From Proteiniphilum saccharofermentans (lineage in GTDB: Bacteria > Bacteroidota > Bacteroidia > Bacteroidales > Dysgonomonadaceae), in contig NZ_LT605205.1 in NCBI RefSeq assembly GCF_900095135.1, forward strand, positions 3,596,001-3,660,000: DNA of 64,000 bases, given 5' to 3'. The notes under the pieces are model-generated. The model saw only the letters and a list, made by a program, of their open reading frames with translations. It did no database searches and was not told the origin of the DNA. Positions 1,491 to 33,661 of this stretch are shown here, piece by piece. A program made the position numbers and the translations under genes. Position 1 is the first letter of the stretch, and each line of letters begins with the position of its first letter.

Positions 1491-4400
1491 CTACCGGCTT
1501 TTCACAAATTTCAGTTCTGGGAGAATTATCTTCACCTCCGTATCCATATCCTGGTTTTTCCAATATACAATAAAGTTAACGTTAGCGGATTGGAGATTAT
1601 ATCCTTTTTGTAACAAAGGTTCCAATCGACTAGAACAAAAATGTTGTGAAAACTTTAATACCGGTCGATTCTGGAGGTTAAAGCAAGTATCCCCTTCAAC
1701 CCTCAATTCATCCCCACTGACCAACTTCTCCAGACTCCACTGCCTATTCATAAAATACCCCAGCCATACATCTTTGTGACTTAAATGGAGGCGCAGTTCA
1801 TCAGGTTGCCCATACATATCAAAATCCACCATTCTCTCTATCGATTCCATATTTATATTATTGAGATACGAACCGTTGAGATGAAGATAAAGATTTTGCT
1901 TTGCCCGGGTCATTGCCACATACAGTAATCGTTTTTCTTCATCGCCAGAAAGAACGAAATTTTCCAAAAGTAAAAAGATATTGTCAAATTCCTGTCCTTT
2001 CGCCTTATGCATGGTCGATATAAATATCGTTTCACCATCTTGCGGAAGGAAATCTTCGAGCTTCGATTCTTTTATAAACAGAGCTAAATCAGATTTGTAT
2101 TTTCCATATTTATTGGTCTCCTCAAATTCTTTTATAAGTCTATTTACAATTTCAATCTTTGTACTATTACCAAACTTTTTTTGTAACTCCTGTTTGGATT
2201 TTTCCCAGATATGATCACCTATTTTTGGTGAAGAAATATCTGAATTTATCTGCTCAACAAAATATCGCATTTCGAGCAAATCATATAAATTAAAGCTGTC
2301 ATTAGATTGTATAAGACTGGCTTTCAATCCTCTTTTCAATAAAAGTCCGGCCACCAAGGAAGCCTCATCATTAGTCCTTGTAAGCACACAGGTAGTTCCT
2401 CTCAGTCCTGTTTCACAGATATTATTCACCAATGGAACAATAAGGTTATCCGTATTATTATAATATACAATCCTTACTTTTCCATTATTGTTATCAACAG
2501 CGATGATCGGGCCTTTTTTAAGCCTGTGAGTGAGTTTTCGTGCAAATTTATTCGAGAATTGCACGAGATTATTTTTACTTCTGTAGTTCTCTATCAGCTC
2601 GTATTTCACCGACTCTTTTTCATCTATCAACGATTTCATATACTTTGAATCGGATCCCCTGAAGGCATAGATATTTTGATCGTCGTCACCAACAGCTATC
2701 ACACGCATATCTTCATTGAATTCCATCAAGGCTCTTATCAAAGAAAATTCATCAGCGCTCATATCTTGCGCTTCATCGATCACTAAAACCGTTTTCGTTA
2801 TCTTGCTTAATTCTATATCACGGCTTTTTATTTTTTCGGTTGCTATGCGGACTATATCCTCTGATTTCTCCACATTTCCGACAAATCCCAATAAATCAAA
2901 GCAAAAAGAATGAAAAGTTTTTATTTCCACAAAATATGCGGCATTACCGATCAGTTTTATCAGTCGTTTCTTAAACTCGGTGGCGGCCGCCCGTGAGAAC
3001 GTAAGCATCAACAACTGCTCATGTTTCACATCTTCCATCAACAGCAACGAGGCAAGTTTATGCACCAACACTTTTGTCTTCCCGCTTCCCGGGCCCGCAG
3101 CAACAACGATATATTTCGACTTGCTGTCTTTTATGATTTTTAATTGCTCCGTGGATAATTCACCGAAAATCTGTCTGAACTTAGTAGGAGTAATATTTCT
3201 TTTCAACTCATTTTGCCTGCTGTTACTGAAATATTTATTCAGAAAAGAGGCATGGTTCAGTTGGAAGTAATCCTCCACAAATAATAGCGCTTCCTTATAC
3301 CCCCTTATCATCTTCTTGGCATACTCGCCAACAATATGTATCTGCTCTATTTTATTTTTGTAGAATCGATCGAGTTTCTCATAATCGTCAGTCGTATAAC
3401 GCTTGGAATTATTTTTCTCTAACCTTTCAACCGTAAGCTTGTTATAGACGACAAGAAAACCACCTTCAATTTTGATAGATTCAATACGGGAAAGATAAAA
3501 GAGGGCATCCTCTATATCATCAAAGGTAATTTCCAGTTTAAAAAGCATCTGCGCTTTTTCGTATTCGCTTTTCAATTCCAGCACCGAAAACTCGACCAAC
3601 ATTTCATCTCCTGCAGTATCCTGAATTGCCTTTTTATTTTTCTCAAAAATATATTCCAGAATGAATTTCGAGAGTTCCTGTCTTTTTTCAAGCAGTTCCT
3701 TTATTTTATCCTTCGGCTCCTTAAAAGCTATCGAGACATGGTTTGGGGAATTATTGTAATTCTCGTACCGTTCCCGTTTGATCCATTTCTTTATATCCCA
3801 AAAGTTGATGATCGTTTTTATCTTATCGGTAGAGACATTCCTACATCCCTCCTGTCCCGCACCCTCGTTCAGTACCTTCAGATTGTACGTTGCCCCCTGT
3901 TCATCCAATGCCGACAACAAAAAATTCTCTATCTTGCTGTATGTTTCCAGTATGAAAAGTGATTGGTTCTGTTTTTCATTTTTCCGGATAAAAGCGGTGA
4001 GATCTTTTGCATCCGCCAATATCTCTTCTTCACGCATCAAGTTTATGATGCGTATGACATCCTCCCGGACAATACCCAAATGATCGGAAATATAATCGAC
4101 ACGCGACTCGGCCACTTCATCTGAAGCATGTCTATGACTTTTATTTGAAAACAGTTTTTTGATTATCCTTGTCGCCTGTACCTCCTGCTTGTCGTCGAAA
4201 TGTGGAGAATTCCGGATCTTTATAATCGCATCCTCCGCATTTTTCGTGAGAATACTGTTGGCAAAAATCCGGGGCATATTTTGACCTCGTTTTAAATATC
4301 CTACATCTTCGAGTGCTGCTATTGCCGACTTGACCCGTGTTTCTATCTCGGCCAGGTTATCATCCCATCCTGCTTTCCGGGCAATCTCCAAAGCTGAATT

Positions 4401-6308
4401 GGATATTGTCGATCTGAAACCGGTAAGTTCTTTGATCGCTTTCCAGATTTGTTGCACCTCTTTAATGTTGAGTTTTGTCTGGTTGAGCAAGGTGAAATGT
4501 TTGTCCAGATCCTGCTCGTTGAATAAGACGTAACAATCGGCGGTAATATTCTCATCTCGACCCGCGCGGCCGGCTTCCTGCACATAATTCTCCAGAGAAT
4601 CAGAAATCTCATAATGGATCACCATCCCCACATCTTTCTTGTCGACTCCCATCCCAAAAGCAGAGGTAGCCACAATTACCCTGACTTCCCCCGACATAAA
4701 AGCATCCTGATTCTCCTTTTTCTGCTTCACATCCATTTTTCCATGGTAAACCCTTGCGCTGAAACCATCGTCGCATAATCTTTCGGCTAATTTAGTGGCT
4801 CGATAGGTTCTGGAAGTATATACAATAATCGAACAATCTTTCGAGTCGATAAGATTTCGTAGAGTATTGTATTTTTCATCGTCATTTTCATTATTGAATA
4901 CCATATAATGAAGATTCGACCTTGAAGTACCGGAGACAAAAAGATCAAGATCAAGCGAAAGTTTTTTGCTGAAATAATCCCTTATGTCTTCTATTACTTT
5001 TTGCTTTGCAGTAGCTGTAAAACAGGAGACAGGTATCGGTTCATCGAGTTGTTTATTATCCTGGATCAAGTGTATAAAATCAGCGATATACATGTAATCC
5101 GGCCTGAAATCCTGTCCCCAGATAGAGAAACAATGTGCTTCATCAATCACGAAGCGGGCGATTTTCCTGCCCAGTAATAAGCGTTCTATCGTTCTTGACC
5201 GCAATGATTCGGGTGAGAGATACAAAATCGATGCAGAGCCATCTTCCACTCTTTCTATCGATTTCGCCCTTTGAATCGGATCCAGCAACCCGTTAATGGT
5301 AACAGCATCAATGATACCGTTCTTCTCGAGATTATCCACTTGGTCCTTCATTAAGGATTGTAATGGAGAGATCACAACAGTCAGCGCTTTTGCACTTTCA
5401 CCCGCCATAAGTGCCGGAACCTGGAAGGCCAGCGATTTCCCTCCTCCCGTTGGGAATATTGCAAGCAGAGATTTACTGGCAACTGCCGCCTTTACGGCAT
5501 TTTCCTGCAAAGCCTCGCCATCATATTCACGATAAGAGTCGAAACCGAAATATTTTTTCAACGCCTTATGAACGTCTAAAAAACTGTTGCAATAAGCACA
5601 ACCTGTAATGCAGGGACTATTCCGTAGCAGAAACATCACATTTTCTGCTACAGGATAATTTTTAAGAACCCATGGAGGTGTGATCGAATAACGGTTTCTC
5701 GCATTGATAAGTGCAAGGCAATAAGCAAGTTCTACCGGATATGCGTTAACAAGATATTCAATATCTGCATTACTACATATCTCCGCTTCAAATTTTCTTC
5801 GTATCTCTATTGCTACATTTATTTGATTGGAAGAGAAATCGATATACTGAAAAAAGCCGGCAAATTCTTTCACATTGGCTAAGAGCAAATAATAAATTCG
5901 CTTCAGTTCCTCGTCCAATTTTGCAAATTCGTTTATCTCATCATACAATAGATTTTTGGCTTTTATTGAATCATTAAGCGGATTATTATAGTTTTCAGGA
6001 TCGAGCTTATCGTCTTTTACCAGGTTATGGTATGGTTGTGCAGGAAATAATAAAGGTGAAAGGTAAAGTGTATCTATTATATTCAGGTTATTCAAACCCG
6101 GTATCTCTTTTGCGATGTATTTTAAATCGTGTGTAAGTATATTATGTCCGCATATATACGCCGTTCCGGCTATAAAATCAGCAAACTCCTTAACCGAAGC
6201 AATATGGAGTCTTTCTCCATTGCCCTTTATACTCCCAATGTCTAGTATTCTATGATTATTAGGATCAATTTCGGTATCAAAAAAAGTAATGATTTTACTT
6301 TGTTCCAT
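1491..6308 (-). CDS. Giant helicase: DEDD exonuclease-like, RecQ and UvrD-type modules in one protein
   Basis: This 1605-residue protein joins three DNA-processing modules. Residues 1-150 resemble a DEDD 3'-5' exonuclease (DTE at 11-13, GHNILTHDL at 54-62, IIDT at 77-80, NDSIKAKNLL at 112-121). A CxxxCxxC motif (233-240) follows. A RecQ-type helicase then spans about 260-650, with Walker A FPTGGGKS (285-292), VIDEAHCFSIWGQDFRPDY (about 387-405) and YVQEAGRAGRDE. The last third is a UvrD/Rep-like SF1 helicase, with GPGSGKT near 1073, VIDEAQD near 1183, GDDDQNIYAF near 1210 and HKAKGQEFD near 1436. Ordinary RecQ is about 600-700 residues. All NTPase motifs look intact. It stands alone on its strand. 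A role in DNA repair or in defence is possible; the sequence alone does not choose. Confidence 0.85.
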   Translation of the reverse strand: MEQSKIITFFDTEIDPNNHRILDIGSIKGNGERLHIASVKEFADFIAGTAYICGHNILTHDLKYIAKEIPGLNNLNIIDTLYLSPLLFPAQPYHNLVKDDKLDPENYNNPLNDSIKAKNLLYDEINEFAKLDEELKRIYYLLLANVKEFAGFFQYIDFSSNQINVAIEIRRKFEAEICSNADIEYLVNAYPVELAYCLALINARNRYSITPPWVLKNYPVAENVMFLLRNSPCITGCAYCNSFLDVHKALKKYFGFDSYREYDGEALQENAVKAAVASKSLLAIFPTGGGKSLAFQVPALMAGESAKALTVVISPLQSLMKDQVDNLEKNGIIDAVTINGLLDPIQRAKSIERVEDGSASILYLSPESLRSRTIERLLLGRKIARFVIDEAHCFSIWGQDFRPDYMYIADFIHLIQDNKQLDEPIPVSCFTATAKQKVIEDIRDYFSKKLSLDLDLFVSGTSRSNLHYMVFNNENDDEKYNTLRNLIDSKDCSIIVYTSRTYRATKLAERLCDDGFSARVYHGKMDVKQKKENQDAFMSGEVRVIVATSAFGMGVDKKDVGMVIHYEISDSLENYVQEAGRAGRDENITADCYVLFNEQDLDKHFTLLNQTKLNIKEVQQIWKAIKELTGFRSTISNSALEIARKAGWDDNLAEIETRVKSAIAALEDVGYLKRGQNMPRIFANSILTKNAEDAIIKIRNSPHFDDKQEVQATRIIKKLFSNKSHRHASDEVAESRVDYISDHLGIVREDVIRIINLMREEEILADAKDLTAFIRKNEKQNQSLFILETYSKIENFLLSALDEQGATYNLKVLNEGAGQEGCRNVSTDKIKTIINFWDIKKWIKRERYENYNNSPNHVSIAFKEPKDKIKELLEKRQELSKFILEYIFEKNKKAIQDTAGDEMLVEFSVLELKSEYEKAQMLFKLEITFDDIEDALFYLSRIESIKIEGGFLVVYNKLTVERLEKNNSKRYTTDDYEKLDRFYKNKIEQIHIVGEYAKKMIRGYKEALLFVEDYFQLNHASFLNKYFSNSRQNELKRNITPTKFRQIFGELSTEQLKIIKDSKSKYIVVAAGPGSGKTKVLVHKLASLLLMEDVKHEQLLMLTFSRAAATEFKKRLIKLIGNAAYFVEIKTFHSFCFDLLGFVGNVEKSEDIVRIATEKIKSRDIELSKITKTVLVIDEAQDMSADEFSLIRALMEFNEDMRVIAVGDDDQNIYAFRGSDSKYMKSLIDEKESVKYELIENYRSKNNLVQFSNKFARKLTHRLKKGPIIAVDNNNGKVRIVYYNNTDNLIVPLVNNICETGLRGTTCVLTRTNDEASLVAGLLLKRGLKASLIQSNDSFNLYDLLEMRYFVEQINSDISSPKIGDHIWEKSKQELQKKFGNSTKIEIVNRLIKEFEETNKYGKYKSDLALFIKESKLEDFLPQDGETIFISTMHKAKGQEFDNIFLLLENFVLSGDEEKRLLYVAMTRAKQNLYLHLNGSYLNNINMESIERMVDFDMYGQPDELRLHLSHKDVWLGYFMNRQWSLEKLVSGDELRVEGDTCFNLQNRPVLKFSQHFCSSRLEPLLQKGYNLQSANVNFIVYWKNQDMDTEVKIILPELKFVKSR

Positions 6309-6421: not shown

Positions 6422-6447
6422 CAGATATAAAGTTATTTACCGAACGT

Positions 6448-7143
6448 ATGATTCGAAATGCAGAAATAAACCAACAGTTTCAGCTATTGGCGGAAACCGA
6501 TTACAAGGTTTTCAATGAAAAACTGATCCCGACGAATTATGAAATACGGGGAATCCGTATGCCGGCACTGAAAAAACTGGCAAAGGAACTATCCAGAGAA
6601 CCTGAGATTGAGACCTATCTGGAAAATGCGGAGTTCACCACCTACGAACATGTGCTGCTTTACGGTTTAGTATTAGGCAATTTGAACAAATTTCGGCTGG
6701 AAACCGTGTTCAGGTATATGGATCCGTTGATCCTTCGATTCGACAATTGGGCACATGTAGATACGCTCACCTCGGCCTTCAGGGTCTTCAAAAAATATCC
6801 GGAAGAAGTATTGGAACATTTCCTGCCACTGAAAAACGACGAAGGGGAATTCACCAAGCGTTTTTTCGTGATCCTGCTGATGTGTCACTATATGGATGAG
6901 AAATATATAGACAGGACATTGCAACAGCTGTCGGAAGTTCCGCAAGGACAGTATTATGTGGATATGGCTATTGCCTGGACACTCAGCGTGGGACTGGTCA
7001 AGTTTTATGATAAAACCCTGTCCTATCTCGAACAAAAGACTTTCTCCAAATTTGTGCATAACAAGGCCATCCGGAAAGCACGTGAAAGCTATCGGATAAC
7101 TCCTGAAATCAAAGAGTTGTTGAATGGGATGAAGATAAAGTGA
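6448..7143 (+). CDS. DNA alkylation repair protein, AlkD-like
   Basis: The 231-residue, all-helical protein matches the AlkD family of HEAT-like-repeat DNA glycosylases, which remove N3- and N7-alkylated purines without base flipping. The family pattern is visible as RMPALKKLAKEL, the YEHVLLYGLVLGNL helix, the DNWAHVDTLTS segment (aligning with the family's WD-containing catalytic helix) and a C-terminal VHNKAIRKARESYR segment. Length fits the family (about 220-240). It has its own -7 box and sits divergent from the large helicase, another DNA-processing gene. No signal peptide, so cytoplasmic. Confidence 0.85.
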   Translation: MIRNAEINQQFQLLAETDYKVFNEKLIPTNYEIRGIRMPALKKLAKELSREPEIETYLENAEFTTYEHVLLYGLVLGNLNKFRLETVFRYMDPLILRFDNWAHVDTLTSAFRVFKKYPEEVLEHFLPLKNDEGEFTKRFFVILLMCHYMDEKYIDRTLQQLSEVPQGQYYVDMAIAWTLSVGLVKFYDKTLSYLEQKTFSKFVHNKAIRKARESYRITPEIKELLNGMKIK

Positions 7144-7163
7144 GTATTGGGATTTTGTTCAGT

Positions 7164-7685
7164 TCAGGTATGTTCAGGTATACTGAAATCTTTATCGGAA
7201 AATAATGCTGCCAAACCCGAGATTTGCTTGAAACGAAGTAATTCGTCTTTGTCCATCCCTATATTTTTCATGATCCATGCATCACTCATTCCTGCTTTCT
7301 TGAGTTCCGCCACAATATTGGTCATCAGTTCAATGCTATGGGTGCCGCGGGCACGGTTGTGCCTGATCGTCGACGCCATACGGTTGGAAAGGTCTTTATC
7401 TATCACCGTTACCGGCAAACATCCCTTTTCCCGCTCATAGATACGTTTTGATGTTTTCATCACCAGATACCGGTGGAACCCGTCCACCAGTTCATATTTG
7501 TCCTCTTCCGGAAGATAGTAACATACGCATGGCATGGTATAACCATCTTCCCATATCGATAATTCGAGGAGCTCCATTTCAGGCGGGGCAACAACATTGG
7601 GATTGTATGCATTCGCTTCTACCTTCTCTACCGGCACAGCCTTTACGGCATACACCGGGCTTGTATATTTCTGTTTGTCATTCAT
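7164..7685 (-). CDS. ParB/IbrB-like nuclease-fold protein
   Basis: The 173-residue protein has a ParB N-terminal fold: a VEKVEANAYNPN start, an ELVDGFHRYLV box (the family's G-x-x-R element) and a HNRARGTHS segment. A C-terminal helical part (MSDAWIMKNIGMDKDELLRFKQ) looks like a DNA-binding HTH. It overlaps the stop of the upstream PP-loop gene by 4 bases (ATGA), so the two are translationally coupled. This pairing matches IbrA/IbrB of E. coli, named as regulators of immunoglobulin-binding protein genes; the biochemical activity of that pair is, to my knowledge, not settled. DndB/DndC-like chemistry is a more distant possibility. Confidence 0.8.
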   Translation of the reverse strand: MNDKQKYTSPVYAVKAVPVEKVEANAYNPNVVAPPEMELLELSIWEDGYTMPCVCYYLPEEDKYELVDGFHRYLVMKTSKRIYEREKGCLPVTVIDKDLSNRMASTIRHNRARGTHSIELMTNIVAELKKAGMSDAWIMKNIGMDKDELLRFKQISGLAALFSDKDFSIPEHT

Positions 7686-8968
7686 GTATTATAAATACCT
7701 TGATAAAAATCCATTACTTTATTACGGAGTGCAAGTTCTTTCTTCGTCATGGCAAATCCCATGTATTTACACAAGTGGTCGTTCCGGAGGATACATATAC
7801 ACATCCGCTTGAAGGTGGGAAGATATTTGAATCCGGGCACATCGAGATCATCCTGATACTCCATCCTGACCGGACACTTCTCCGTCTTATAATTGGTATG
7901 GTCCACCACCTCTATGTCGATCCCCATCTCCTGCAGTTGTTGTATCGACTTTTCCGGAAGACAGCCACCCCGTTTGCGCCAGAAATTGATACTCACCGAG
8001 AGCTTCCGCAAATAGTTCTGACGAATTTCTTCCGGCAAAGTGGACAAAAGGAAGTGCATATAACTCTCCCATGTATGCCCTGCCGGCAGAGTGATCTTTT
8101 TCTGTGCCACCACGCTTGTGTGGCCATAGAGGGATGTGAAATTGATGCCGTTCACACGGCATATCATTTTCCCCCACATATCGGGGTCGATAGCCCGGTA
8201 AAGATGCAGGCTTTCCTGTGCCGCCAAAAGGAAAGGACTGGCTACACGTTGTTTTTCCAGCGGAACGCCCGCCTGATAATAGAGATCGTACAGCCGGTTG
8301 TAGTCCCAACCGAAACGGCCGTTAGCCGTCCACACATCCGTCGTCAGCCAGTCATGTATCACATAGGCATTGTAAATATCTTTCGACAACTGTTTTGTCC
8401 ACTTCAGGTTACGAAACATATGATGTTTCCTTTTGCCATGGATCGTTCTCCACCGATGCGAACTTTCCTGGGTGCGTATTCCGACCAGGCAGCAGGTTTT
8501 CTTTGCATTCTTCTGCAAATGATACCATTGGGCAAAAAGAATATAGAATTCGGAATCCCATATACCGGGATGGTAGAACGGGAAATCTTCTTTCCGATAG
8601 CTTCCGGCGGGCATATCCCTTACCCAGAAATCTTTGCAATCCTCATCCCATGGACGCCAATAAGTCTGATGCATCGACGTACAAGTGGTCACCTTGAAAG
8701 GTACACATACGCGGTATACTTCCAGAATATCGGCATTTGCCTCCAGCACCCTGTCGACATACGCTATCGTCTCGCTGTACTGTATTTCATAGTCCATAAA
8801 AAACACACCGATCTTTCTGTCCGGATTGTTCTCCCTTATATATTGTATACAAAGGTTCAACATCACACCGCTGTCCTTACCGCCGGAAAAAGAGACATAG
8901 ATATTATCGAATTCATTGAATAATAACTTTATCCGCAGCATGGCCAGTTCATACACGTTCTTTTTCAT
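7682..8968 (-). CDS. IbrA-like PAPS-reductase-family PP-loop protein (DUF3440)
   Basis: The 428-residue protein has an N-terminal PP-loop, YVSFSGGKDSGVM, that binds ATP for substrate adenylation, as in PAPS reductase and tRNA thiolation enzymes. Further family segments are GVFFMDYEIQYS and LVGIRTQESSHRW, and a later part carries several cysteine and histidine residues. The start at 8968 was preferred over an upstream ATG at 9004 because it forms a 4-base ATGA overlap with the stop of the preceding GNAT-like gene. Family members are usually called DUF3440 or IbrA. It is encoded in tandem with the ParB-like IbrB partner. The true substrate is unknown. Confidence 0.82.
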   Translation of the reverse strand: MKKNVYELAMLRIKLLFNEFDNIYVSFSGGKDSGVMLNLCIQYIRENNPDRKIGVFFMDYEIQYSETIAYVDRVLEANADILEVYRVCVPFKVTTCTSMHQTYWRPWDEDCKDFWVRDMPAGSYRKEDFPFYHPGIWDSEFYILFAQWYHLQKNAKKTCCLVGIRTQESSHRWRTIHGKRKHHMFRNLKWTKQLSKDIYNAYVIHDWLTTDVWTANGRFGWDYNRLYDLYYQAGVPLEKQRVASPFLLAAQESLHLYRAIDPDMWGKMICRVNGINFTSLYGHTSVVAQKKITLPAGHTWESYMHFLLSTLPEEIRQNYLRKLSVSINFWRKRGGCLPEKSIQQLQEMGIDIEVVDHTNYKTEKCPVRMEYQDDLDVPGFKYLPTFKRMCICILRNDHLCKYMGFAMTKKELALRNKVMDFYQGIYNT

Positions 8969-9360
8969 TCCTTGAATACCTTCATTTTTACATACCTTTT
9001 CCAATTAAGAACAATCGCAAACCCATTTTTTTCAAATTCGGGGATATGCCGCAGTTGCGTAACCGACTCAATCTCAAATTCAGACGAAAGCACCTTGACA
9101 ATTTCTTTCAGCAAAGCAGAAAAAACGGTACTATCATCATCCGCCACATAATAATTATTTATTTTGGCCTTGCCCTCTTCCAGTTTGACAGGGATAAAAC
9201 CAAGGGTAACACCATTCTCCACGGCCACGAACTATACATAATCGGACGATGTCTTATAGGGATAGTTCAGATTGTAACCGATCACCTCCTCATCCATTAC
9301 AAGGTGTGCCACCAAAGAATAAAGCTGCTTGTCTTTCCCTTTTAATTGAACAATATCCAT
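8965..9360 (-). pseudogene. GNAT-like acetyltransferase gene with an in-frame amber codon
   Basis: Reading from an ATG at 9358-9360 gives 42 codons, then TAG at 9232-9234, then a further 88 codons in the same frame ending at 8965. Both halves are sensible protein: MDIVQLKGKDKQLYSL at the start, and NGVTLGFIPV and INNYYVADDDSTVFSALL after the stop, the latter resembling a GNAT core. A single TGG-to-TAG change would account for it. The gene ends in a 4-base overlap with the PP-loop gene, so it is the first member of that operon. A GTG at 9228 could restart translation of the second part. Nonsense mutation, sequencing error and readthrough all remain possible. Confidence 0.7.
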
Positions 9361-10311: not shown

Positions 10312-10998
10312 TTAAAACATTTTTTGCAGCGCTATCCTGTCTTTGATAAGGATATCCCTCCGGTCCACTTCAATAATACCATCCGCAGCCATCTCCATCA
10401 TCACTTTTACCAATGCGGGACGTGAAACACTGAAAAGGCGGGCAATCTCCTCCTTGGAGGCTTTCAACCGGAACAATGGTTTGCCGGCCGACTCTTTCAA
10501 CAGGTAATAGGCCAGCTTTGCACGGATGGTACGCAATGAGACAAGCCTCAATTTTTCGGAAAGGGATGAAACCCTGTTGGAAATATAGGATAGAAAAGCC
10601 AGCATAAACGATTCATACTTCCTCATCAGGAAATAGACATTCTCTTTGGGAATGACTACTGCCGTGCAAGGCATTTTACATATTGCGGAGACGGGCGACC
10701 GGTTATTGGTAGCAAACAGGAAACCCGTAGCCAACGGATTGGGTGCGCTGATATGCGCCACCTTCATGAAATCGCCCTTTTCATCAGCCATCTCCGTCAC
10801 GATCTCTCCCCTGATCAGGATATAGAGCGACTCATAAAGGGTCCCTTGAGTAACGATCACATCGCCTTTCTGATAGTTTTTTACAGAAAAGCGTACGTCC
10901 CGCATAAAATCTTCACGCTGATCTTCCGGCACAGAATTGCACAACGGGCATTGAAAGATCATTCCGGTATGATGGTTATCAAAGTGTCGTCCTTCCAT
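10312..10998 (-). CDS. Crp/Fnr-family transcriptional regulator next to nrfHA
   Basis: The 228-residue protein has a cyclic-nucleotide-binding-type beta-barrel (about 30-140: YQKGDVIVTQG, LYILIRGEIV), a long dimerisation helix, and a C-terminal winged HTH (KASKEEIARLFSVSRPALVKVM). An N-terminal CPLC pair (residues 17-20) is present, but the four-cysteine pattern of an Fe-S Fnr is not, so sensing by haem or another ligand, as in HcpR-like regulators, is possible. It is divergent from nrfH across a 204-base region holding a repeated 21-bp sequence and a palindrome. Control of nitrite reduction is therefore likely. Confidence 0.88.
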   Translation of the reverse strand: MEGRHFDNHHTGMIFQCPLCNSVPEDQREDFMRDVRFSVKNYQKGDVIVTQGTLYESLYILIRGEIVTEMADEKGDFMKVAHISAPNPLATGFLFATNNRSPVSAICKMPCTAVVIPKENVYFLMRKYESFMLAFLSYISNRVSSLSEKLRLVSLRTIRAKLAYYLLKESAGKPLFRLKASKEEIARLFSVSRPALVKVMMEMAADGIIEVDRRDILIKDRIALQKMF

Positions 10999-11202: not shown

Positions 11203-11799
11203 ATGGGCAAACTTAGAAACTTCTGGAACGAAATTCGGCCGCGCGGAGGATGGAGATATCCGGCCTTCATCATTAGTGGTGCCTTCGTGGGTCTGTTTAT
11301 CTATACCTTCTTCACGTCACGGGCATACAGCTATCTTTCCGATGACCCCGCCACCTGCGTGAACTGCCATATCATGGGTCCCTACTACGCCACCTGGATG
11401 CACAGTTCTCACGGACGAAACGCTACTTGCAACGATTGCCACGTACCGCAGGACAACAAGCTGAAAGGATACTATTTCAAGGCGGTCGACGGATTACGCC
11501 ATTCAGCCATTTTCACAATACGTGGTGAGGACCAGGCTATCCAGGCCATCGAGGCAAGTTCTCAGGTAATCATGGATAACTGCATCCGTTGCCACACGCA
11601 ACTCAATACCGAGTTTATAAAAACAGGGCGTATGGGTTTCAAGGACACCAAGGAAATGGGTGGGAGTACCTGCTGGGACTGCCACAGGGATGTCCCCCAC
11701 ACACGCAGCCGATCGCTCTCATCAACACCCAATGCACGGGTACCGATGCCGAAAAGCAATGTCCCGGATTGGCTGCACAATATGATGAAGAAGGATTGA
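11203..11799 (+). CDS. nrfH: Cytochrome c nitrite reductase, membrane quinol-oxidising subunit
   Basis: The 198-residue protein is a NapC/NirT-type tetrahaem cytochrome. It has one N-terminal membrane helix (about 20-37) and four CxxCH haem-attachment sites at 52-56, 76-80, 127-131 and 157-161. NrfH takes electrons from menaquinol and passes them to NrfA on the outer face of the cytoplasmic membrane. It is followed by nrfA after 131 bases of AT-rich spacer containing short direct repeats of GGTAATT. The order nrfH-nrfA-ccsB-ccsA is usual in Bacteroidetes. Confidence 0.95.
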   Translation: MGKLRNFWNEIRPRGGWRYPAFIISGAFVGLFIYTFFTSRAYSYLSDDPATCVNCHIMGPYYATWMHSSHGRNATCNDCHVPQDNKLKGYYFKAVDGLRHSAIFTIRGEDQAIQAIEASSQVIMDNCIRCHTQLNTEFIKTGRMGFKDTKEMGGSTCWDCHRDVPHTRSRSLSSTPNARVPMPKSNVPDWLHNMMKKD

Positions 11800-11930
11800 C
11801 GATGTGTTGATTTATTGATGTGATGATGTGCCAATGTGAATAGTTAAAAGTGAAGAAGTCAAGAATAATGAATCTTGAATTTCTATAAAATTGGTAATTA
11901 GTAATTGATAATTGGTAATTTCATATAAGT

Positions 11931-13427
11931 ATGAAGAGCAAAAACGATAACAAGATGAAACCGTGGGTAGGGTGGTTACTATTTTTCTCTACCCTGGGAG
12001 TGGTATTCCTGCTGGGAATGCTGGCGGCTTCCATCACACAGCGAAGAGCCGAGATAGCAAGCGTGATGAACAACAGAAAAGTGGAGATCACAGGCATTGA
12101 GTCGAGAAGTGAAATATTCGCGGTGAATTATCCGCGTCAATATGAAACCTGGGCTGAAACTGCCGATACCACTTTCCAAAGTGAGTTTAACGGAAGCAGT
12201 GCGGTGGATGTACTTGCAGAACGCCCTGAAATGGTGATCCTTTGGGCCGGTTATGCTTTTGCAAAAGACTATAGTACACCGAGAGGCCACAAGCACGCAG
12301 TCGCGGATGTGCATCACACACTGCGCACCGGCGCACCTATGACACCCGACGAAGGTCCGCAACCGGCTACTTGCTGGACCTGTAAAAGTCCCGATGTACC
12401 CCGACTGATGGATTCGGTGGGAATTGCCGAATTCTACAAAGAGAGTTGGGCACACTGGGGACACGAGGTGGTCAATCCTATAGGTTGTGCCGATTGCCAT
12501 GATGCGGAAACCATGGATCTGAAAATCAGCCGCCCTGCACTGATAGAAGGTTTCGAGAACATGGGTATGGATATCAGGGAAGCCACCCATCAGGATATGC
12601 GCTCACTGGCTTGTGCACAATGCCATGTGGAATATTATTTCACTCCCGAAGGCAAATACCTCATCTTCCCTTGGCACAATGGCACCAGCATGGAAGGAGC
12701 AGAACAGTATTATGACAGTATAGGGTTCGCCGATTACACGCACGCGCTGAGTAAAGCCCCCATCATCAAGGCACAACATCCCGATTACGAAATCTATAAG
12801 ACAGGAATACACGCCCAGCGCGGCGTATCATGTGCCGATTGCCATATGCCCTATATTTCCGAGGGCGGCATAAAATACAGCGACCACCATGTAATCAGCC
12901 CCCTTGCCAATATCAGCAATACCTGCCAGGTGTGCCACAGGGAGTCGGAAGAAGATCTCAGGAATGCCGTCTATGAAAGGCAGCGTAGCGCAAACCAGAT
13001 CCGGAACTTAGTGGAGGAGGAACTCTCAAAAGCACACTTGGAAGCCCAATTCGCATGGGAGAAAGGTGCTTCTGAAACACAAATGCATAATGCCCTTCAA
13101 CTGATCCGTCAGGCGCAATGGCGCTGGGATTACGCAGTTGCTTCTCACGGCGGATCATTCCACTCCCCGGTGGAATTCCAGCGTATCCTCTCCATGGGGT
13201 TGGACCGTGCACACAAAGCCCGGTTCGAAATCTCCAAAGTACTGGCTGAACTCGGCTTCACGGGTAATGTACCCCTGCCTGACATCTCCACGAAAGAGAA
13301 GGCACAAGCCTATATAGGACTCGATATGGACAAGGAAAGAGCCAACAAGCAGAAATTCCAGGAGACTATCGTTCCCCAATGGCTTGAGACGGCAAGAGCA
13401 AACAACCGCCTGGTGAGTTTGAACTGA
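11931..13427 (+). CDS. nrfA: Cytochrome c nitrite reductase, catalytic subunit
   Basis: The 498-residue enzyme reduces nitrite to ammonium with six electrons. The diagnostic lysine-ligated catalytic haem site CWTCK is at 148-152, with four further CxxCH sites at 186-190, 228-232, 301-305 and 332-336, giving five haems in the standard order. The N-terminus (about 12-35) is a hydrophobic signal or anchor segment for export. The conserved HMPY stretch after the fourth site and the C-terminal helices for dimer formation are present. Length is normal for NrfA. Haem loading would depend on the ccsBA genes that follow. Confidence 0.96.
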   Translation: MKSKNDNKMKPWVGWLLFFSTLGVVFLLGMLAASITQRRAEIASVMNNRKVEITGIESRSEIFAVNYPRQYETWAETADTTFQSEFNGSSAVDVLAERPEMVILWAGYAFAKDYSTPRGHKHAVADVHHTLRTGAPMTPDEGPQPATCWTCKSPDVPRLMDSVGIAEFYKESWAHWGHEVVNPIGCADCHDAETMDLKISRPALIEGFENMGMDIREATHQDMRSLACAQCHVEYYFTPEGKYLIFPWHNGTSMEGAEQYYDSIGFADYTHALSKAPIIKAQHPDYEIYKTGIHAQRGVSCADCHMPYISEGGIKYSDHHVISPLANISNTCQVCHRESEEDLRNAVYERQRSANQIRNLVEEELSKAHLEAQFAWEKGASETQMHNALQLIRQAQWRWDYAVASHGGSFHSPVEFQRILSMGLDRAHKARFEISKVLAELGFTGNVPLPDISTKEKAQAYIGLDMDKERANKQKFQETIVPQWLETARANNRLVSLN

Positions 13428-13434
13428 GGCTCTT

Positions 13435-13588
13435 TTGCAACTAAAGCAGAGGCCTATAGATGTTTTGTGGGGACCCATATCTCGCGATGAGCATAAAAAG
13501 AGTAGTTAGCGAAGCGACTTCTACTCTTTTAGCTCATAAGTGATGAAATGGGTCACAAAATATCGTCAGCCAATTGATTTAGTTGCAA
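13435..13588. repeat. Palindromic intergenic element, copy 1 (nrfA-ccsB)
   Basis: A 154-bp imperfect palindrome. The outermost arms TTGCAACTAAA and TTTAGTTGCAA pair perfectly. Inner arms (GATGTTTTGTGG...ACCCAT with ATGGGTCACAAAATATC, and GAGCATAAAAAGAGTAG with CTACTCTTTTAGCTC) continue the stem to a GCGAAGC-containing tip. A second copy at 22954-23114 keeps the fold while its bases differ on both sides of the stem. No T-run follows, so it is not a simple terminator. It lies inside an operon and would be transcribed as a long hairpin. Confidence 0.85.
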
Positions 13589-13609
13589 TTAATACGACTT
13601 ATAAATATA

Positions 13610-14884
13610 ATGAATAAAAATACTTCCCGTAAGATTTGGGACCACCCATGGGGGTATGCGGAAGGTTTTATCGTGGCGGCAGGTGTCCTGTTATCAGGAA
13701 TACTCCTGCAATTTGCCGCCGGAAATATCGAGACCGCCCTTTTTGCTTCCCCCGTTAACACTATTGTCGGAGCCCTGTTCGTTGCAGGGCTTCTCGCTGT
13801 TCATTTCCTGTCCGGGAAAAGCCGGGTGGTCAGATGGCTGTCAAGTGTATATGCCACCATCCCGGCATTAGTCATCCTACTCATACTTGCCATGATCTTG
13901 GGGATTCTCCCCCAGTTTGCTGCCGGTACGGAAAAAGGACAATTACCTCCCCACCCTTTCACTTCTCTCGGTTGGTACCAGATGACGACTTCATGGCCGT
14001 TCGTATTGCTCTGTTTTTACAATCTGAGCATCCTCGGACTTACCACATTAAGGAGAACAACCCGGAAACATACCTGGCGTGAAATCGGCTTTTACCTGAA
14101 CCATCTCGGACTGTTTATCGCCCTTTTAGGTGGAATATTGGGCAGTGCAGATATGGAACGGCTCACCATGACCATCCAGGAAGGACAGGTAGAATGGCGC
14201 GGGAACCTGAAAACGGGTGAAATAAAGGAACTGCCTTTAGCCATCCAGTTAGATACTTTTATGATAGAGGAGTATGAACCGAAACTGGTCATCATCGAAA
14301 ACGGAACGGGAAAGATGTTGCCCGCCTCCCGCCCCGAAAGTTATATGTTTGAAGGGATAGGTAAAGCTACCCAATTGGCAGGTGTCACCCTCGAAATAAC
14401 GGACTACCTGCCGCACGCGGCCATCTTCAGGGATTCCACTTTTATGAATGTGGTTCCTATGATGATGGAAGGAGCCACCACCGCCATCAAGGTAAAAGCG
14501 GACAAACCCGGCCTGGCACAGCCCATAGAGGGATGGGTCAGTAACGGCAGCTACCTCTTTCCCCACATCTTTTTACAAATCGATGAAGAAACAAGTGTGG
14601 CTATGCCGGTGCAGGAGGTAAAAAAATACAGTTCGCATGTGACCGCCTTTACCGAAAGCGGAATTACAAAAGAAGCGGTGATCGAAGTCAACAAACCGTT
14701 ACAGGTTGAAGACTGGATGATCTACCAGTACAGCTATGACGACACGAAAGGTAAATATTCCGACACATCCGTCTTTGAACTGGTACGTGACCCCTGGTTG
14801 AAAGCGGTCTACACAGGCATTTTCATGCTTTTGGCCGGAGCGCTCTTCCTGTTTATTGCCGGACCTAAAAAAAGGACTATATGA
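13610..14884 (+). CDS. ccsB: ResB-type cytochrome c biogenesis protein
   Basis: The protein of about 424 residues has three or four N-terminal membrane helices (including GFIVAAGVLLSGILLQFAAG and LVILLILAMILGIL), a large extracytoplasmic domain of beta character (about 190-390), and a last helix (AVYTGIFMLLAGALFLFIAG). This is the ResB/CcsB architecture, which with CcsA forms the system II haem lyase that attaches haem to exported cytochromes such as NrfH and NrfA. The start at 13610 (MNKNTSRK) was chosen because an upstream TTG start would lie inside the palindromic element. ccsA follows after 52 bases. Confidence 0.88.
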   Translation: MNKNTSRKIWDHPWGYAEGFIVAAGVLLSGILLQFAAGNIETALFASPVNTIVGALFVAGLLAVHFLSGKSRVVRWLSSVYATIPALVILLILAMILGILPQFAAGTEKGQLPPHPFTSLGWYQMTTSWPFVLLCFYNLSILGLTTLRRTTRKHTWREIGFYLNHLGLFIALLGGILGSADMERLTMTIQEGQVEWRGNLKTGEIKELPLAIQLDTFMIEEYEPKLVIIENGTGKMLPASRPESYMFEGIGKATQLAGVTLEITDYLPHAAIFRDSTFMNVVPMMMEGATTAIKVKADKPGLAQPIEGWVSNGSYLFPHIFLQIDEETSVAMPVQEVKKYSSHVTAFTESGITKEAVIEVNKPLQVEDWMIYQYSYDDTKGKYSDTSVFELVRDPWLKAVYTGIFMLLAGALFLFIAGPKKRTI

Positions 14885-14936
14885 CAGGGAGGGGAGGAGA
14901 AAACAGAACGACTGTCTGAAATTAGTGATACAAATT

Positions 14937-15725
14937 ATGACCTGGGATTCATTTATATATTTCGCAATAAGTGCCGTGGTGCTTTGGGGCAGCGGTGCAG
15001 CCCTTGCCTATGGAAGTAAGCGTAAGTTGTGGCCGGCATTGCTAACCACATTGGGCTTGATTGTATTCTCAATCTTCATCGCCGGATTGTGGATGTCGCT
15101 TGAACGTCCGCCCCTACGCACCATGGGTGAAACACGCCTCTGGTATTCCTTTTTCCTGCCCGTAGCCGGATTGCTCACCTATCTTCGGTGGAACTACAAA
15201 TGGATACTCTCTTTCACCACTGTACTCTCCACGGTCTTTATCATTGTGAATATCGTAAAGCCCGATATCCATAACAAAGTACTTATGCCGGCGCTGCAAA
15301 GCCCCTGGTTCGCACCACACGTTATTATCTATATGTTCTCTTATGCCATCCTGGGCGCCGCAACACTGGTCGCCATCTACTATCTGGTCAGGGAAAAGAA
15401 GATCAACAACAAAGCTCACCTGATGGAAATGACCGACAGTCTGGTCTACGCCGGTATCGCCTGTATTACGCTGGGCATGCTGATAGGGGCCATCTGGGCG
15501 AAAATAGCCTGGGGGCATTACTGGAGCTGGGATCCGAAAGAGACTTGGGCAGCCGCCACCTGGATAGGATACCTGCTTTATATCCATTACCGTTTGAAGA
15601 AAAGTTCATCGGATAAAACCTCGATGATCTTACTGATCATTGCATTTATCCTGTTGCAGGTTTGCTGGTACGGTGTCAACTACCTCCCGTCAGCACAGCA
15701 AAGTATTCACACCTATTCATCATAA
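14937..15725 (+). CDS. ccsA: CcsA-type cytochrome c assembly protein (haem handling)
   Basis: The 262-residue, very hydrophobic protein has about seven or eight membrane helices and the tryptophan-rich haem-binding motif WGHYWSWDPKETWAA, the hallmark of the CcsA/CcmC/CcmF haem-handling family. Conserved histidines (APHVIIYMFSYA before it, YLLYIHYR after it) would serve as haem ligands. With CcsB it moves haem across the membrane and attaches it to CxxCH sites. The start at 14937 (MTWDSF) begins just before the first helix; a further upstream ATG would add a polar 27-residue extension overlapping ccsB. A terminator follows. Confidence 0.92.
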   Translation: MTWDSFIYFAISAVVLWGSGAALAYGSKRKLWPALLTTLGLIVFSIFIAGLWMSLERPPLRTMGETRLWYSFFLPVAGLLTYLRWNYKWILSFTTVLSTVFIIVNIVKPDIHNKVLMPALQSPWFAPHVIIYMFSYAILGAATLVAIYYLVREKKINNKAHLMEMTDSLVYAGIACITLGMLIGAIWAKIAWGHYWSWDPKETWAAATWIGYLLYIHYRLKKSSSDKTSMILLIIAFILLQVCWYGVNYLPSAQQSIHTYSS

Positions 15726-30772: not shown

Positions 30773-33661
30773 TTAATCAGCTGAATACTCAATATCAATT
30801 TGAGTTATTTCATCTATTGCATCAAACAAATCTATAAAATACATAAATACCTTCCTATCATGTACCCCTCTAACCAGTTTTGAGAATCCAGCCTTCTTTG
30901 ATTCTTTAATCTTATATACATCTGGGATATCTGTTTTTTCGACTACACCGCTGTCTATAAGGAACTGATGCCCAAAATAATGTTCAACCTCAAAAAAATT
31001 GAAAGATTGATCCTTCTTCAAGTAAACATCCATTTCTCCCGGCACTGGTAAAAGTAGGGCATAAATATTACTATCTCTATGTTTTCGAACTGTATCCTTC
31101 TTATTTTTAATAAAAACTGATTCTTTTAAGCCTCTAAATTCTTGTAACCCTTTTGAATCATGGTCAAAAATCCCAATTACTATATCATCTTCTTCTATTA
31201 GTGGCTTACAATTTGATATAGACTTTGCAACTTCTGAAGCTCCTCCTCCGGATACATTACCACTCGATTTAATACTCCAATACGGGCTACTACCATTTGT
31301 CAAAACATAGTATGCGTGTTCGATAATTTCAGCATCGGTTTTTCCCTCAACTACTAGCTGTACCTTTTTGTCTGACAATACAGTATCAAGTTTAGTAAAC
31401 CGAACTCTACTGGCAGGTAATTTTATTAATTCTTTTACGGGCTCTGATATTTTTGGGAAATAATTTTCTCGAATTTCTTTTTTTAGTTTATCATACTTCT
31501 CTCCCCCTAGCGTTGAGAAAGAAAAATCAAGAATTGAGTATAAGGTTGGTTCTTTCATTATTGAATCATCATCAATAATTGTTTCCAAAGCCTTACTGTA
31601 AGATATTCTTCTTGAGTCTAATATTAAGGCAATGGTTACTGATTTTAATGCAAAAATAACCTTTTTGGTTTTCTTATATTCTTCATACAAACGACAGAAA
31701 GCCATTTTTAGGGGTTCTTTAACTGTAATCGAATTAAAGTTCTCATAAAAATATAAGAGATTCATTATTTGAAGAATGGGAATAGAATAATTTTTGAAAA
31801 GAACCATATCGTCCGCAGCTAGTTTAATTAGGACTTCTGTAGACTTGGTATTTAAATCAATAGCCTCATGTATAGCCTCTTCTCTTAGCTTATTGTCAGT
31901 TTGATATAGAGCTTGTAATAAATACCCAGAACCCAATACACCAGAAATATACTGGTTTAACTGATTCGCATTTCTAAGTTTCTTTATAATCTTCTCCAAG
32001 AAAACGGGCATATCCTTAGACTTACCTGCGTAGAATATCCCAGAATTCTGCCATTTAAAATCAAAGAAATTTTCAACTAATAAATCCTCTTTATCACGTC
32101 TATGTTTAAAGATTTCAACAGCAGCATAATATTCCATATAAGAATCATGACTAAACTGAACCCATTTATTATCCTTTACAATCAATACGCCAGTATTATC
32201 TATCAAATATTCCAAAACTTCCTCTAATGAGCCTTTTCTAATAGGTAGTGTTTTCCCATTGAAGTATTTATTAAAGTAATGAAAAAACTCATCTTTAGTC
32301 AATGGCGTATGTTTATCATTCTCCAACAAGTATAGTGCATATAAAGACAGAATCCTTTCTTTAAATGATATATCGACAAACTCAATTCTACTAGACACGG
32401 TCAATCGCCCTATTATTAATGAATTGAAATTATCATAAATATCAGCAATTGTTGCAGGTATTTCTAAATTATTTTCCTCATATAGAATTGAAATCAGCGA
32501 TAGTGTTAAGGGTGTAATCGGGAGCCTTTCAATTATTCTATTTTCCTTCAGAGCCTCCAACAGAGATTCTGTTTTAGCGTTTTCACCCAAGAAAAACTTT
32601 GAAATAAATTTCTTTACTTGCTCTGTATTAAATTTTTCTATATGATACGAATCAAATAAGCTATCTGATAACGATTCCATTTTATCGGAATTTCTCGAAG
32701 ATATGACATACCTAAAATTATATCTTTCTGAGAGGTTCTTCAATTCTATCAATATTCCTTTTTGTTCATCCTCACTAAACTCATCAATGCTGTCAATCAA
32801 CAAGCGGACATGATAACTACGAGAAATATCCAATAAGCTTTCAAGAGCAAAAAAGGTTGACAGTTTTTTTATGACCAATTTTTCTATCTCACAGTTGGTT
32901 TCATAAATTTCTATCGTTGATATATATATCGGTATATTTCGAATAGTAGTATTCTCATCAAGATTCAAGGAAATGAGTTGTTCTCCGATTTTTTTAAGAA
33001 AAGTAGATTTCCCTGCACCTGCATCACCCGAGAGAATTGTTGGCTTAGTAGATTTAATAATATCATCTATTGTTACTCTTTTTCGAACAGGCGTTTGGGT
33101 TGTTTTATCTTCATAGAAATGTATGATTCTAGGTTCAATATAGATATCTAATAACTTTTGGTATTTATCATTGAATATTTTCAGTTTCTTCAGTTCTGTA
33201 TCCTTTGATAGACTGTCACAAAAATGTTTTTCATATTCAATCAAATTCAAATCTTTGTGCTTCCAAAAGTCATTGTAATTTTCATTTATAAGGTCGATTA
33301 ACCGGTCACGCCCGATGAAATTCAGTTTAAAATGAGTAATTTTCTGAGAAATTGTCTTTTCAAACCCACTTGATATATTTTTTTCAGAAACAAGATATAC
33401 AACATTGGCCATATGAGTATCTTGATACTTTACGATAGTATCATAAATGCTGCCTATATCAACATTTCCACTAAGACGCTGTTCTAAAAGTATGAATAAA
33501 AACTTCTCTGAACTAAGAGGACTTTTATTAATAGCAACTATTGCATTACTATCCACCACCACCTCATTGTATCCCAGATATTTGATTAAATTAACCATTA
33601 AGCCTTTCAAGTCGGCTATACTCAATTCCTCAATTTTTTTTATTTTACTTTTTCCTATCAT
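30773..33661 (-). CDS. REase-like / NACHT NTPase / TOPRIM-like fusion, candidate defence protein
   Basis: This 962-residue protein has three recognisable parts. Residues 1-125 look like an Mrr-type restriction-endonuclease fold (VAINKSPL, LLEQRL, a VVYLVSEK strand, FIGRDRLIDLINEN), but EQR stands where E/QxK is usual, so catalysis is doubtful. Residues 205-370 are a NACHT/STAND NTPase, with Walker A GDAGAGKST (212-220) and Walker B VRLLIDSIDEF (285-295). A long helical region (about 400-750) could be the sensor. Residues about 765-870 carry TOPRIM-like signatures, VVEGKTDAEII and IGIFDHDSKG, as in OLD-type nucleases. NACHT fusions with effector nucleases are known antiphage proteins. This exact combination I do not recognise. 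It lies in a tRNA island. Confidence 0.8.
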   Translation of the reverse strand: MIGKSKIKKIEELSIADLKGLMVNLIKYLGYNEVVVDSNAIVAINKSPLSSEKFLFILLEQRLSGNVDIGSIYDTIVKYQDTHMANVVYLVSEKNISSGFEKTISQKITHFKLNFIGRDRLIDLINENYNDFWKHKDLNLIEYEKHFCDSLSKDTELKKLKIFNDKYQKLLDIYIEPRIIHFYEDKTTQTPVRKRVTIDDIIKSTKPTILSGDAGAGKSTFLKKIGEQLISLNLDENTTIRNIPIYISTIEIYETNCEIEKLVIKKLSTFFALESLLDISRSYHVRLLIDSIDEFSEDEQKGILIELKNLSERYNFRYVISSRNSDKMESLSDSLFDSYHIEKFNTEQVKKFISKFFLGENAKTESLLEALKENRIIERLPITPLTLSLISILYEENNLEIPATIADIYDNFNSLIIGRLTVSSRIEFVDISFKERILSLYALYLLENDKHTPLTKDEFFHYFNKYFNGKTLPIRKGSLEEVLEYLIDNTGVLIVKDNKWVQFSHDSYMEYYAAVEIFKHRRDKEDLLVENFFDFKWQNSGIFYAGKSKDMPVFLEKIIKKLRNANQLNQYISGVLGSGYLLQALYQTDNKLREEAIHEAIDLNTKSTEVLIKLAADDMVLFKNYSIPILQIMNLLYFYENFNSITVKEPLKMAFCRLYEEYKKTKKVIFALKSVTIALILDSRRISYSKALETIIDDDSIMKEPTLYSILDFSFSTLGGEKYDKLKKEIRENYFPKISEPVKELIKLPASRVRFTKLDTVLSDKKVQLVVEGKTDAEIIEHAYYVLTNGSSPYWSIKSSGNVSGGGASEVAKSISNCKPLIEEDDIVIGIFDHDSKGLQEFRGLKESVFIKNKKDTVRKHRDSNIYALLLPVPGEMDVYLKKDQSFNFFEVEHYFGHQFLIDSGVVEKTDIPDVYKIKESKKAGFSKLVRGVHDRKVFMYFIDLFDAIDEITQIDIEYSAD

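Follow-up and report, generated by a model that had tools for sequence, protein, structure and literature searches.

The 64,000-nucleotide window analysed here (Proteiniphilum saccharofermentans, contig NZ_LT605205.1) carries a gene whose product joins a nuclease-like domain to helicases of two superfamilies, SF2 and SF1, and the question raised by this locus is what such a chain does with DNA and to whose benefit. The gene occupies 1491..6308 on the minus strand as a single intact frame of 1605 amino acids with an ATG start; the plus strand of the same interval, read in frame 1, contains many stops. A preliminary description had named DEDD-like, RecQ and UvrD-type modules in one 1605-residue chain, and these are confirmed by the frame, the profile scores and the predicted fold. 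It gave no strand, and it did not include the apparent winged-helix array between the motors, the asparagine found in place of a catalytic histidine, or the widespread family to which the gene belongs, represented by 47 further loci. The exonuclease-RecQ-winged helices-UvrD fusion is a real family, and apparently an unstudied one. The same description knew of no experimental study of the arrangement, which agrees with the open-access literature (bioRxiv and subscription papers lying outside it), where no paper on an exonuclease-RecQ-UvrD arrangement was recognised.

Domain architecture of the fusion protein

A Pfam scan of the whole protein returned 16 matches up to E 0.1, and no family passed its cut-off on residues 1-245, on the roughly 430 residues between the helicases or on the last 115 residues. 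The N-terminal domain (residues 1-130; 5919..6308, minus strand) had no Pfam match, whether as part of the whole protein (E <= 0.1) or searched alone (E <= 1), and a search of the same genome with PF00929 gave one match, at another place than the fusion gene. Across 47 rows of this domain Pfam matches were weak only; PF03104 (polymerase B exonuclease) was the sole family seen in more than one row (5 of 47, best E 0.0075). An hmmsearch against solved structures found nine sequences at E 0.035 to 0.46, seven of them DEDD-type enzymes and the remaining two a Ceg4 protein. Profile comparison by hhalign with 13 DnaQ-like proteins of relatives gave a probability of 91.5% (E 8.7e-7), and comparison with four RNase T-like proteins of relatives gave 1.1%, which is no match.

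The AlphaFold2 model of the N-terminal domain, built from 38 rows, has a mean pLDDT of 91.9. DinG of Staphylococcus aureus is its best structural match, with a VIA-align Z of 13.6 and an rmsd of 4.1 over 231 residues. Next, with Z of about 10 to 12, come polymerase exonuclease domains, DnaQ, exonuclease I, oligoribonuclease, Cap18, RNase T, ExoX and a TREX1 homologue. Foldseek alone returned nothing below E 0.001, and its best match was DinG (2.5e-3). The alignment of relatives contains the motifs D11xE13, GHN(54-56)....D61, D79-T-L (79-81) and N108-[ND]-P-x-x-D113. These motifs are readable in 46 of the 47 copies, L121 being the exception, and all four metal-binding acids are kept in 45 of the 46. 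The fold matches (Z about 10 to 13.6) and the four acids together place the modelled domain in the DEDD exonuclease superfamily, with both the fold and the catalytic acids that the preliminary description supposed. The one copy without the last acid lies on a viral contig (L124:9941-14881); it is whole-length, its third exonuclease motif contains an insertion, and a cysteine stands in place of that acid, which reads as a natural loss at the predicted nuclease site.

DEDDh enzymes carry a histidine five residues before the last acid, and the DEDDy subfamily (WRN, family A and B polymerases) carries a tyrosine four residues before the last aspartate. Of the 46 readable copies of the fusion family, 45 have asparagine and one has lysine at the histidine position (N108, aligned by hhalign with the histidine of the 13 DnaQ-like proteins). 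The tyrosine position is asparagine in 25 copies, aspartate in 19, histidine in one and serine in one, so that tyrosine is missing in all 46. Because of these replacements at both sites, the predicted DEDD fold is by motif neither DEDDh nor DEDDy. H94 and K98 are invariant in the N-terminal alignment, H94 in all 46 readable copies, and H94, 14 residues ahead of N108 in the protein of the window, is perhaps a stand-in for the general-base histidine. Asparagine at the general-base position suggests a nuclease that is slow or switched, as would fit an enzyme kept harmless until triggered.

The region that follows (residues 131-245; 5574..5918, minus strand) consists of helices in the AlphaFold2 model. 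Four cysteines, C178, C233, C237 and C240, are all present in 42 of 45 readable copies, and the remaining three copies lack at least three of them. These cysteines are likely to form a metal site, most simply one for zinc.

Both helicase cores are recognised by their families. The RecQ core (SF2; residues 246-613; 4470..5573, minus strand) scores 268.6 bits against the NCBIfam recQ_fam cut-off of 219.8 and has RecQ-type motifs, including the Walker A lysine K291, DEAH at 389-392 and the aromatic-rich loop CxSxWGxDFRxDY, which occurs in 41 of 42 copies. It belongs to the RecQ helicase family and is not RecQ proper, with 317.9 of the 640.2 bits of the equivalog TIGR01389 (best stretch 247-634); RQC, HRDC and RecQ Zn-binding families are absent from the 16 Pfam matches. 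The UvrD-type core (SF1; residues 1046-1491; 1836..3173, minus strand) scores 108.3 bits with PF00580 (cut-off 23) and 87.3 bits, over cut-off, with PF13361. It shows the motifs AGPGSGKT (K1077), DEAQD, GDDDQ, HKAKG and TRA, and the SF1 motifs are found in 41 or 42 of 42 copies, as expected of a UvrD/Rep helicase. The nine helicase motif patterns each occur in 41 or 42 of the 42 copies with all four main parts, the window's included, which bears out the earlier claim that both NTPase sites are intact as judged by motif.

The linker between the motors (residues 614-1045; 3174..4469, minus strand) gave weak Pfam matches to helix-turn-helix and winged-helix families, the most frequent of which reached 15 of 43 members. 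Its model has a pLDDT of 80.8 and a pTM of 0.52, so that the packing of its domains is uncertain. Winged-helix proteins make up most of the structure matches listed, the best having a Z of 8.9 over 79 residues; apart from single domains of this kind little was matched, and Foldseek alone found nothing below E 0.001. From sequence and model, the linker looks like an array of several winged-helix domains; structure prediction, which the preliminary description had proposed for setting domain limits, produced models for this linker and for the DEDD fold. The C-terminal domain (residues 1492-1605; 1494..1835, minus strand) is unassigned but conserved in the family, whose own profile for it matches nearly all copies that extend that far, and a single-sequence search of solved structures with it found nothing below E 1.

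Comparison with an 84% identical copy from the same genus gave dN/dS values of 0.07 for the whole gene and 0.09 for residues 1-130, both rough because synonymous sites are near saturation; the C-terminal part has no computable ratio. The domains with computable ratios are under purifying selection.

Distribution, transfer and gene neighbourhoods

The 47 further loci with the exonuclease part come from nine plasmid records, four genomes of relatives, 20 members of a genome collection and 14 viral contigs (14 of the 80 loci kept), so that chromosomes, plasmids and viral contigs are all represented. The near-identical copy in genome G021, a contig-split copy in G054 and 14 further genomes of the phylum are counted outside the 47; in these 14 the domain lies in open frames of 1601-1731 amino acids. 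The hosts that the records name are members of Bacteroidota, Bacillota, Campylobacterota, Pseudomonadota, Verrucomicrobiota, Cyanobacteriota and Actinomycetota, several being metagenome bins and the last represented by a copy cut at a contig end; an eighth phylum, Lentisphaerota, has a C-terminal fragment only. Some of these phylum names were assigned from record titles. All whole copies show one order of profiles, namely exonuclease, RecQ, linker, UvrD and C-terminal, and the exceptions are copies cut at contig ends, a frame-broken draft copy (L041) and the L121 frame, whose exonuclease part is shortened.

Within the genus, 4 of 37 genomes have the gene, counting the window's own, as do 3 of 24 from other families (one of these copies being split over two contigs), or 7 of 61 together. 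In the phylum sample it occurs in 15 of 395 genomes, again counting its own (14 of 371 among good ones). Twelve plasmid records cover at least 80% of the protein. None of 50,697 phage records does so, and the best 20 of 21 matches there concern the RecQ region only. A blastn search of E. coli genomes with the Pseudomonas copy, a weak method for distant DNA, gave no match. Annotated copies on the plasmid records are named 'RecQ family ATP-dependent DNA helicase', and two more records have no gene call at the place. The fusion is a patchy, widespread and horizontally moving family.

In the window, the gene is flanked by genes for an RNA-binding protein and an AlkD-like repair protein. In a sister species of the same genus (G007, locus L208), the homologues of both flanking genes are 208 bp apart, compared with 5.13 kb in the window; the segment 1317..6446 may have been gained in the window or lost in G007. 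No repeats were visible by eye at its edges. Few genomes of the genus (6 of 39) have the AlkD-like gene at all, and among the four informative AlkD loci, own and G021 aside, the two flanking genes lie side by side in G007 and not in the other three. G021, a close relative and no more, is collinear with the window for 12.9 kb at 97.9%. The fusion gene of G025 is at another site, behind a CcsB-like gene (a name taken from a score under the model's cut-off).

A tree of 32 chosen rows placed the window copy in a starred set with one Bacillota and one Lentisphaerota copy. Bacillota and Lentisphaerota copies fall among those of Bacteroidota, and the window's own genus is split into two distant lineages, another species of it (G029) falling in the distant one. 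The tree was made by a quick method with a single-matrix model; most rows are of unequal letter make-up, one branch is long, the Lentisphaerota row is 29% filled and all viral-contig rows were left out. As judged from these sequences, the gene moves between distant bacteria and across phyla.

Several other features of the window were recorded. At 7164-9004 (minus strand) two overlapping genes encode a ParB-like protein and a DUF3440/PAPS-reductase-like protein, a pair that we take to resemble IbrB/IbrA; the latter protein has weak similarity to DndC and BrxP. The stretch 6447-8649, with AlkD and this pair, is also found conserved in G007, where the fusion gene is missing. Further away, 11203-15725 (plus strand) has the nitrite reductase genes for NrfH and NrfA, one gene without a name and a CcsB-like gene of cytochrome c biogenesis, adjoined by a Crp-type regulator at 10312-10998 (minus strand). 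A 962-residue protein encoded at 30776-33661 (minus strand) has a weak match to NCBIfam DS8_antiphage (40.6 of 790 bits).

A neighbourhood survey for defence genes, suggested by the preliminary description, found the neighbours of the family defence-rich compared with those of plain RecQ genes; the window copy itself does not adjoin a known defence system. Up to two open frames per side were scanned (three or fewer on one side at contig ends), as called by a crude longest-frame caller, with frames of more than 1100 residues left out. At 1e-15, 259 PADLOC models matched the 146 neighbours of 41 family loci (146 of 152 frames and 41 of 42 loci, L128 and the right side of L127 being dropped). In the control, 13 models matched the 126 neighbours of 32 plain RecQ loci (17 of 143 frames, namely all of L102, L108, L109 and L110 and a single one of L103, were dropped as long, so that 32 of 36 loci remained). 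PADLOC matches listed for the family include DNA methyltransferases, type I restriction, SoFic, RmrA and PDC-S04/S05. The control is itself not defence-free, with matches that include IetA, a type IIG enzyme and mad3. Among the best 25 Pfam families, those of the family neighbours include DNA methylases, IrrE-like peptidase, Schlafen AlbA_2, Fic and TOTE primase, and control neighbours belong mainly to housekeeping families. A single one of the 146 neighbours has the TOTE conflict-system primase domain. In the window, plus-strand frames replaced the real minus-strand pair at 7164-9004, and the frame 7147-7437 entered the scan.

Plasmids and viral contigs carry more defence genes anyway, and the contrast is biased in this respect, 9 of the 40 non-window loci being on plasmids and 11 on viral contigs; PADLOC models are also redundant. 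The defence-rich neighbourhood is a strong hint rather than a measured enrichment. By individual copy, type I restriction adjoins that of Allochromatium, a type I-D CRISPR locus lies near that of Thiothrix, and HipA or BrnT toxin genes are near those of Aliarcobacter, Rhizobium and Cereibacter; no named defence system was seen in the Bacteroides finegoldii, Nostoc and Croceicoccus stretches. A large helicase gene lies directly behind the Nostoc plasmid copy (L027:14936-17779). No PADLOC or Pfam family recurs in more than four of the 146 neighbours, a count that would miss partners without a model. Genes surrounding the viral-contig copies matched 186 PADLOC models, with no control set, and PHROG families of integrase, invertase, methyltransferase and ParB-like proteins. 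These contigs may be prophages, prophage edges or other integrated elements, because the only packaging family among the best 25 of 167 PHROG families is the terminase small subunit, in two members.

Role of the fusion protein

The fusion is best explained as a solitary, horizontally spreading helicase-nuclease, most likely one that defends against phage or plasmid DNA, an explanation to which about an even chance is given. Counted in its favour are the fixed architecture, the patchy spread, the transfer, the plasmid and viral copies, the defence-rich neighbours and the lack of a recurring partner, together with the precedent of Hna (PMC13381803). Counted against it are the window copy, which adjoins no known defence system, the Bacteroides finegoldii copy without an evident defence gene nearby, the biased neighbour contrast with its unclean control, and L124, which has lost the last acid.

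Translocation by RecQ and UvrD families runs 3'-5', as does degradation by DEDD exonucleases. Fold, motifs, conservation, mobility, the defence-rich neighbourhood and the lack of a recurring partner are computed results; a nuclease activity, the polarity, an order of events, a trigger and the defence role we infer. The winged-helix array and the RecQ core would bind a fork, a flap or a single-stranded gap arising from the invader's replication. Powered by ATP hydrolysis, the RecQ and UvrD motors would then unwind the DNA and strip it, following one strand in tandem or pulling on both arms of a fork. With the winged-helix array as a grip on DNA, unwinding would expose 3' ends, and a freed 3' end would be fed to the DEDD domain and degraded 3'-5'. 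In its most specific form, which is rather unlikely as a whole, the proposal is of a one-protein immunity in which same-polarity SF2 and SF1 motors, separated by winged helices, would sense invader forks by pulling both arms and would drive a His-less DEDD nuclease that stays off until the motors deliver a 3' end.

Change of the general-base histidine usually abolishes activity in DEDDh enzymes, and because of this the nuclease of the fusion may be dead. The domain would then only grip 3' ends, and the protein would act as a translocase with two motors, remodelling DNA or stripping proteins, an explanation compatible with the others. The asparagine in 45 of 46 copies points this way. The retention of the four acids in the same number of copies, which would be needless at a dead site, and the low dN/dS over the domain argue against it, so that a dead exonuclease domain is possible and rather doubtful.

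The protein could also be a host enzyme of DNA repair or replication restart, a functional parallel of WRN or DinG that clears stalled forks, flaps and recombination intermediates by unwinding and 3'-end trimming. WRN likewise pairs a RecQ core with a DEDD-type exonuclease; the exonuclease fold comes closest to that of DinG, which degrades 3' tails at forks (PMC12525004); the gene is under strong purifying selection; and AlkD is its neighbour in this genome. Set against these are its presence in a few percent of genomes and in just 4 of 37 of the genus, its movement between phyla, scanned neighbours rich in defence and mobile genes, and an AlkD gene that stands at the G007 locus without the fusion gene; a host repair role is unlikely. 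Quite improbable is a helper of mobile elements in plasmid or prophage replication, transfer or stability, or in countering RecBCD-type attack by the host, for which speak the plasmid copies, that on the Aliarcobacter plasmid pACIB lying near replication and partition genes, and the viral-contig copies with integrase, invertase and ParB-like genes, and against which stand the many copies in genome assemblies among unrelated genes, the phage records, none of which covers 80% of the protein, and the absence of any family common to more than four of the neighbours.

Comparison with known systems

Of the PADLOC models, the best for the RecQ part is DpdF of the Dpd system, whose NCBIfam cut-off is not reached (210.4 of 550 bits), and the best for the UvrD part is GajB of Gabija. 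No OLD-type GajA nuclease lies beside the window gene, whose neighbours encode the RNA-binding and AlkD-like proteins, and the locus is not a Gabija system.

RecBCD and AddAB also bring helicase motors and a nuclease together and, unlike the fusion, do so with SF1 motors only, a RecB-type nuclease and two to three chains. In RecBCD the motors are of opposite polarity and run on the two strands of one end. The preliminary description pictured RecBCD-like degradation of both strands; this was abandoned, since both motors of the fusion belong to 3'-5' families, its one exonuclease fold is of 3'-5' type, and motors of the same polarity cannot track both strands inward from one end. As a candidate, a RecBCD-like machine was rejected as well on model scores far under the cut-offs for RecB (69.2 of 696.05 bits), AddA (64.1 of 707.65 bits) and RecD.

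Because both motors belong to 3'-5' families, the best reading by analogy is that the fusion would work like Hna rather than like RecBCD. Hna is a single-gene anti-phage protein of Sinorhizobium, found in about 2% of genomes, and a 3'-5' ssDNA exonuclease that is restrained by ATP and stimulated by phage SSB (PMC13381803). The fusion resembles it as one patchily distributed gene, encoding SF2 helicase motifs and a nuclease in one chain and having no fixed partner. It is not Hna proper: Hna has a C-terminal PD-(D/E)XK nuclease and one motor, whereas the fusion has its nuclease-like part at the N-terminus with a DEDD fold, a RecQ core and a second, SF1 motor. The fusion is a candidate one-gene defence against invading DNA. 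Its conserved, His-less chain would allow a test of how a single DNA is shared between two motors, and of the way in which a DEDD enzyme works, or stays silent, without a general base.

DinG provides the nearest solved structure of the N-terminal domain. To our knowledge, its helicase is XPD-like and not RecQ, and it has no UvrD part. The DinG proteins of Bacillus and Staphylococcus share with the fusion an N-terminal DEDD exonuclease and an SF2 helicase (PMC12525004). WRN of eukaryotes has, like the fusion, an N-terminal DEDD-group exonuclease followed by a RecQ core. It also has RQC and HRDC domains and, as far as we know, no SF1 helicase. In the fusion, neither RQC nor HRDC is matched, and the apparent winged-helix array and UvrD follow the RecQ core. 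A Drosophila study called WRN unique in the RecQ family for its added 3'-5' exonuclease activity (PMC2408639). By sequence and predicted fold, the fusion family unites RecQ and exonuclease in bacteria too, a counterpart of the WRN pairing that spreads horizontally.
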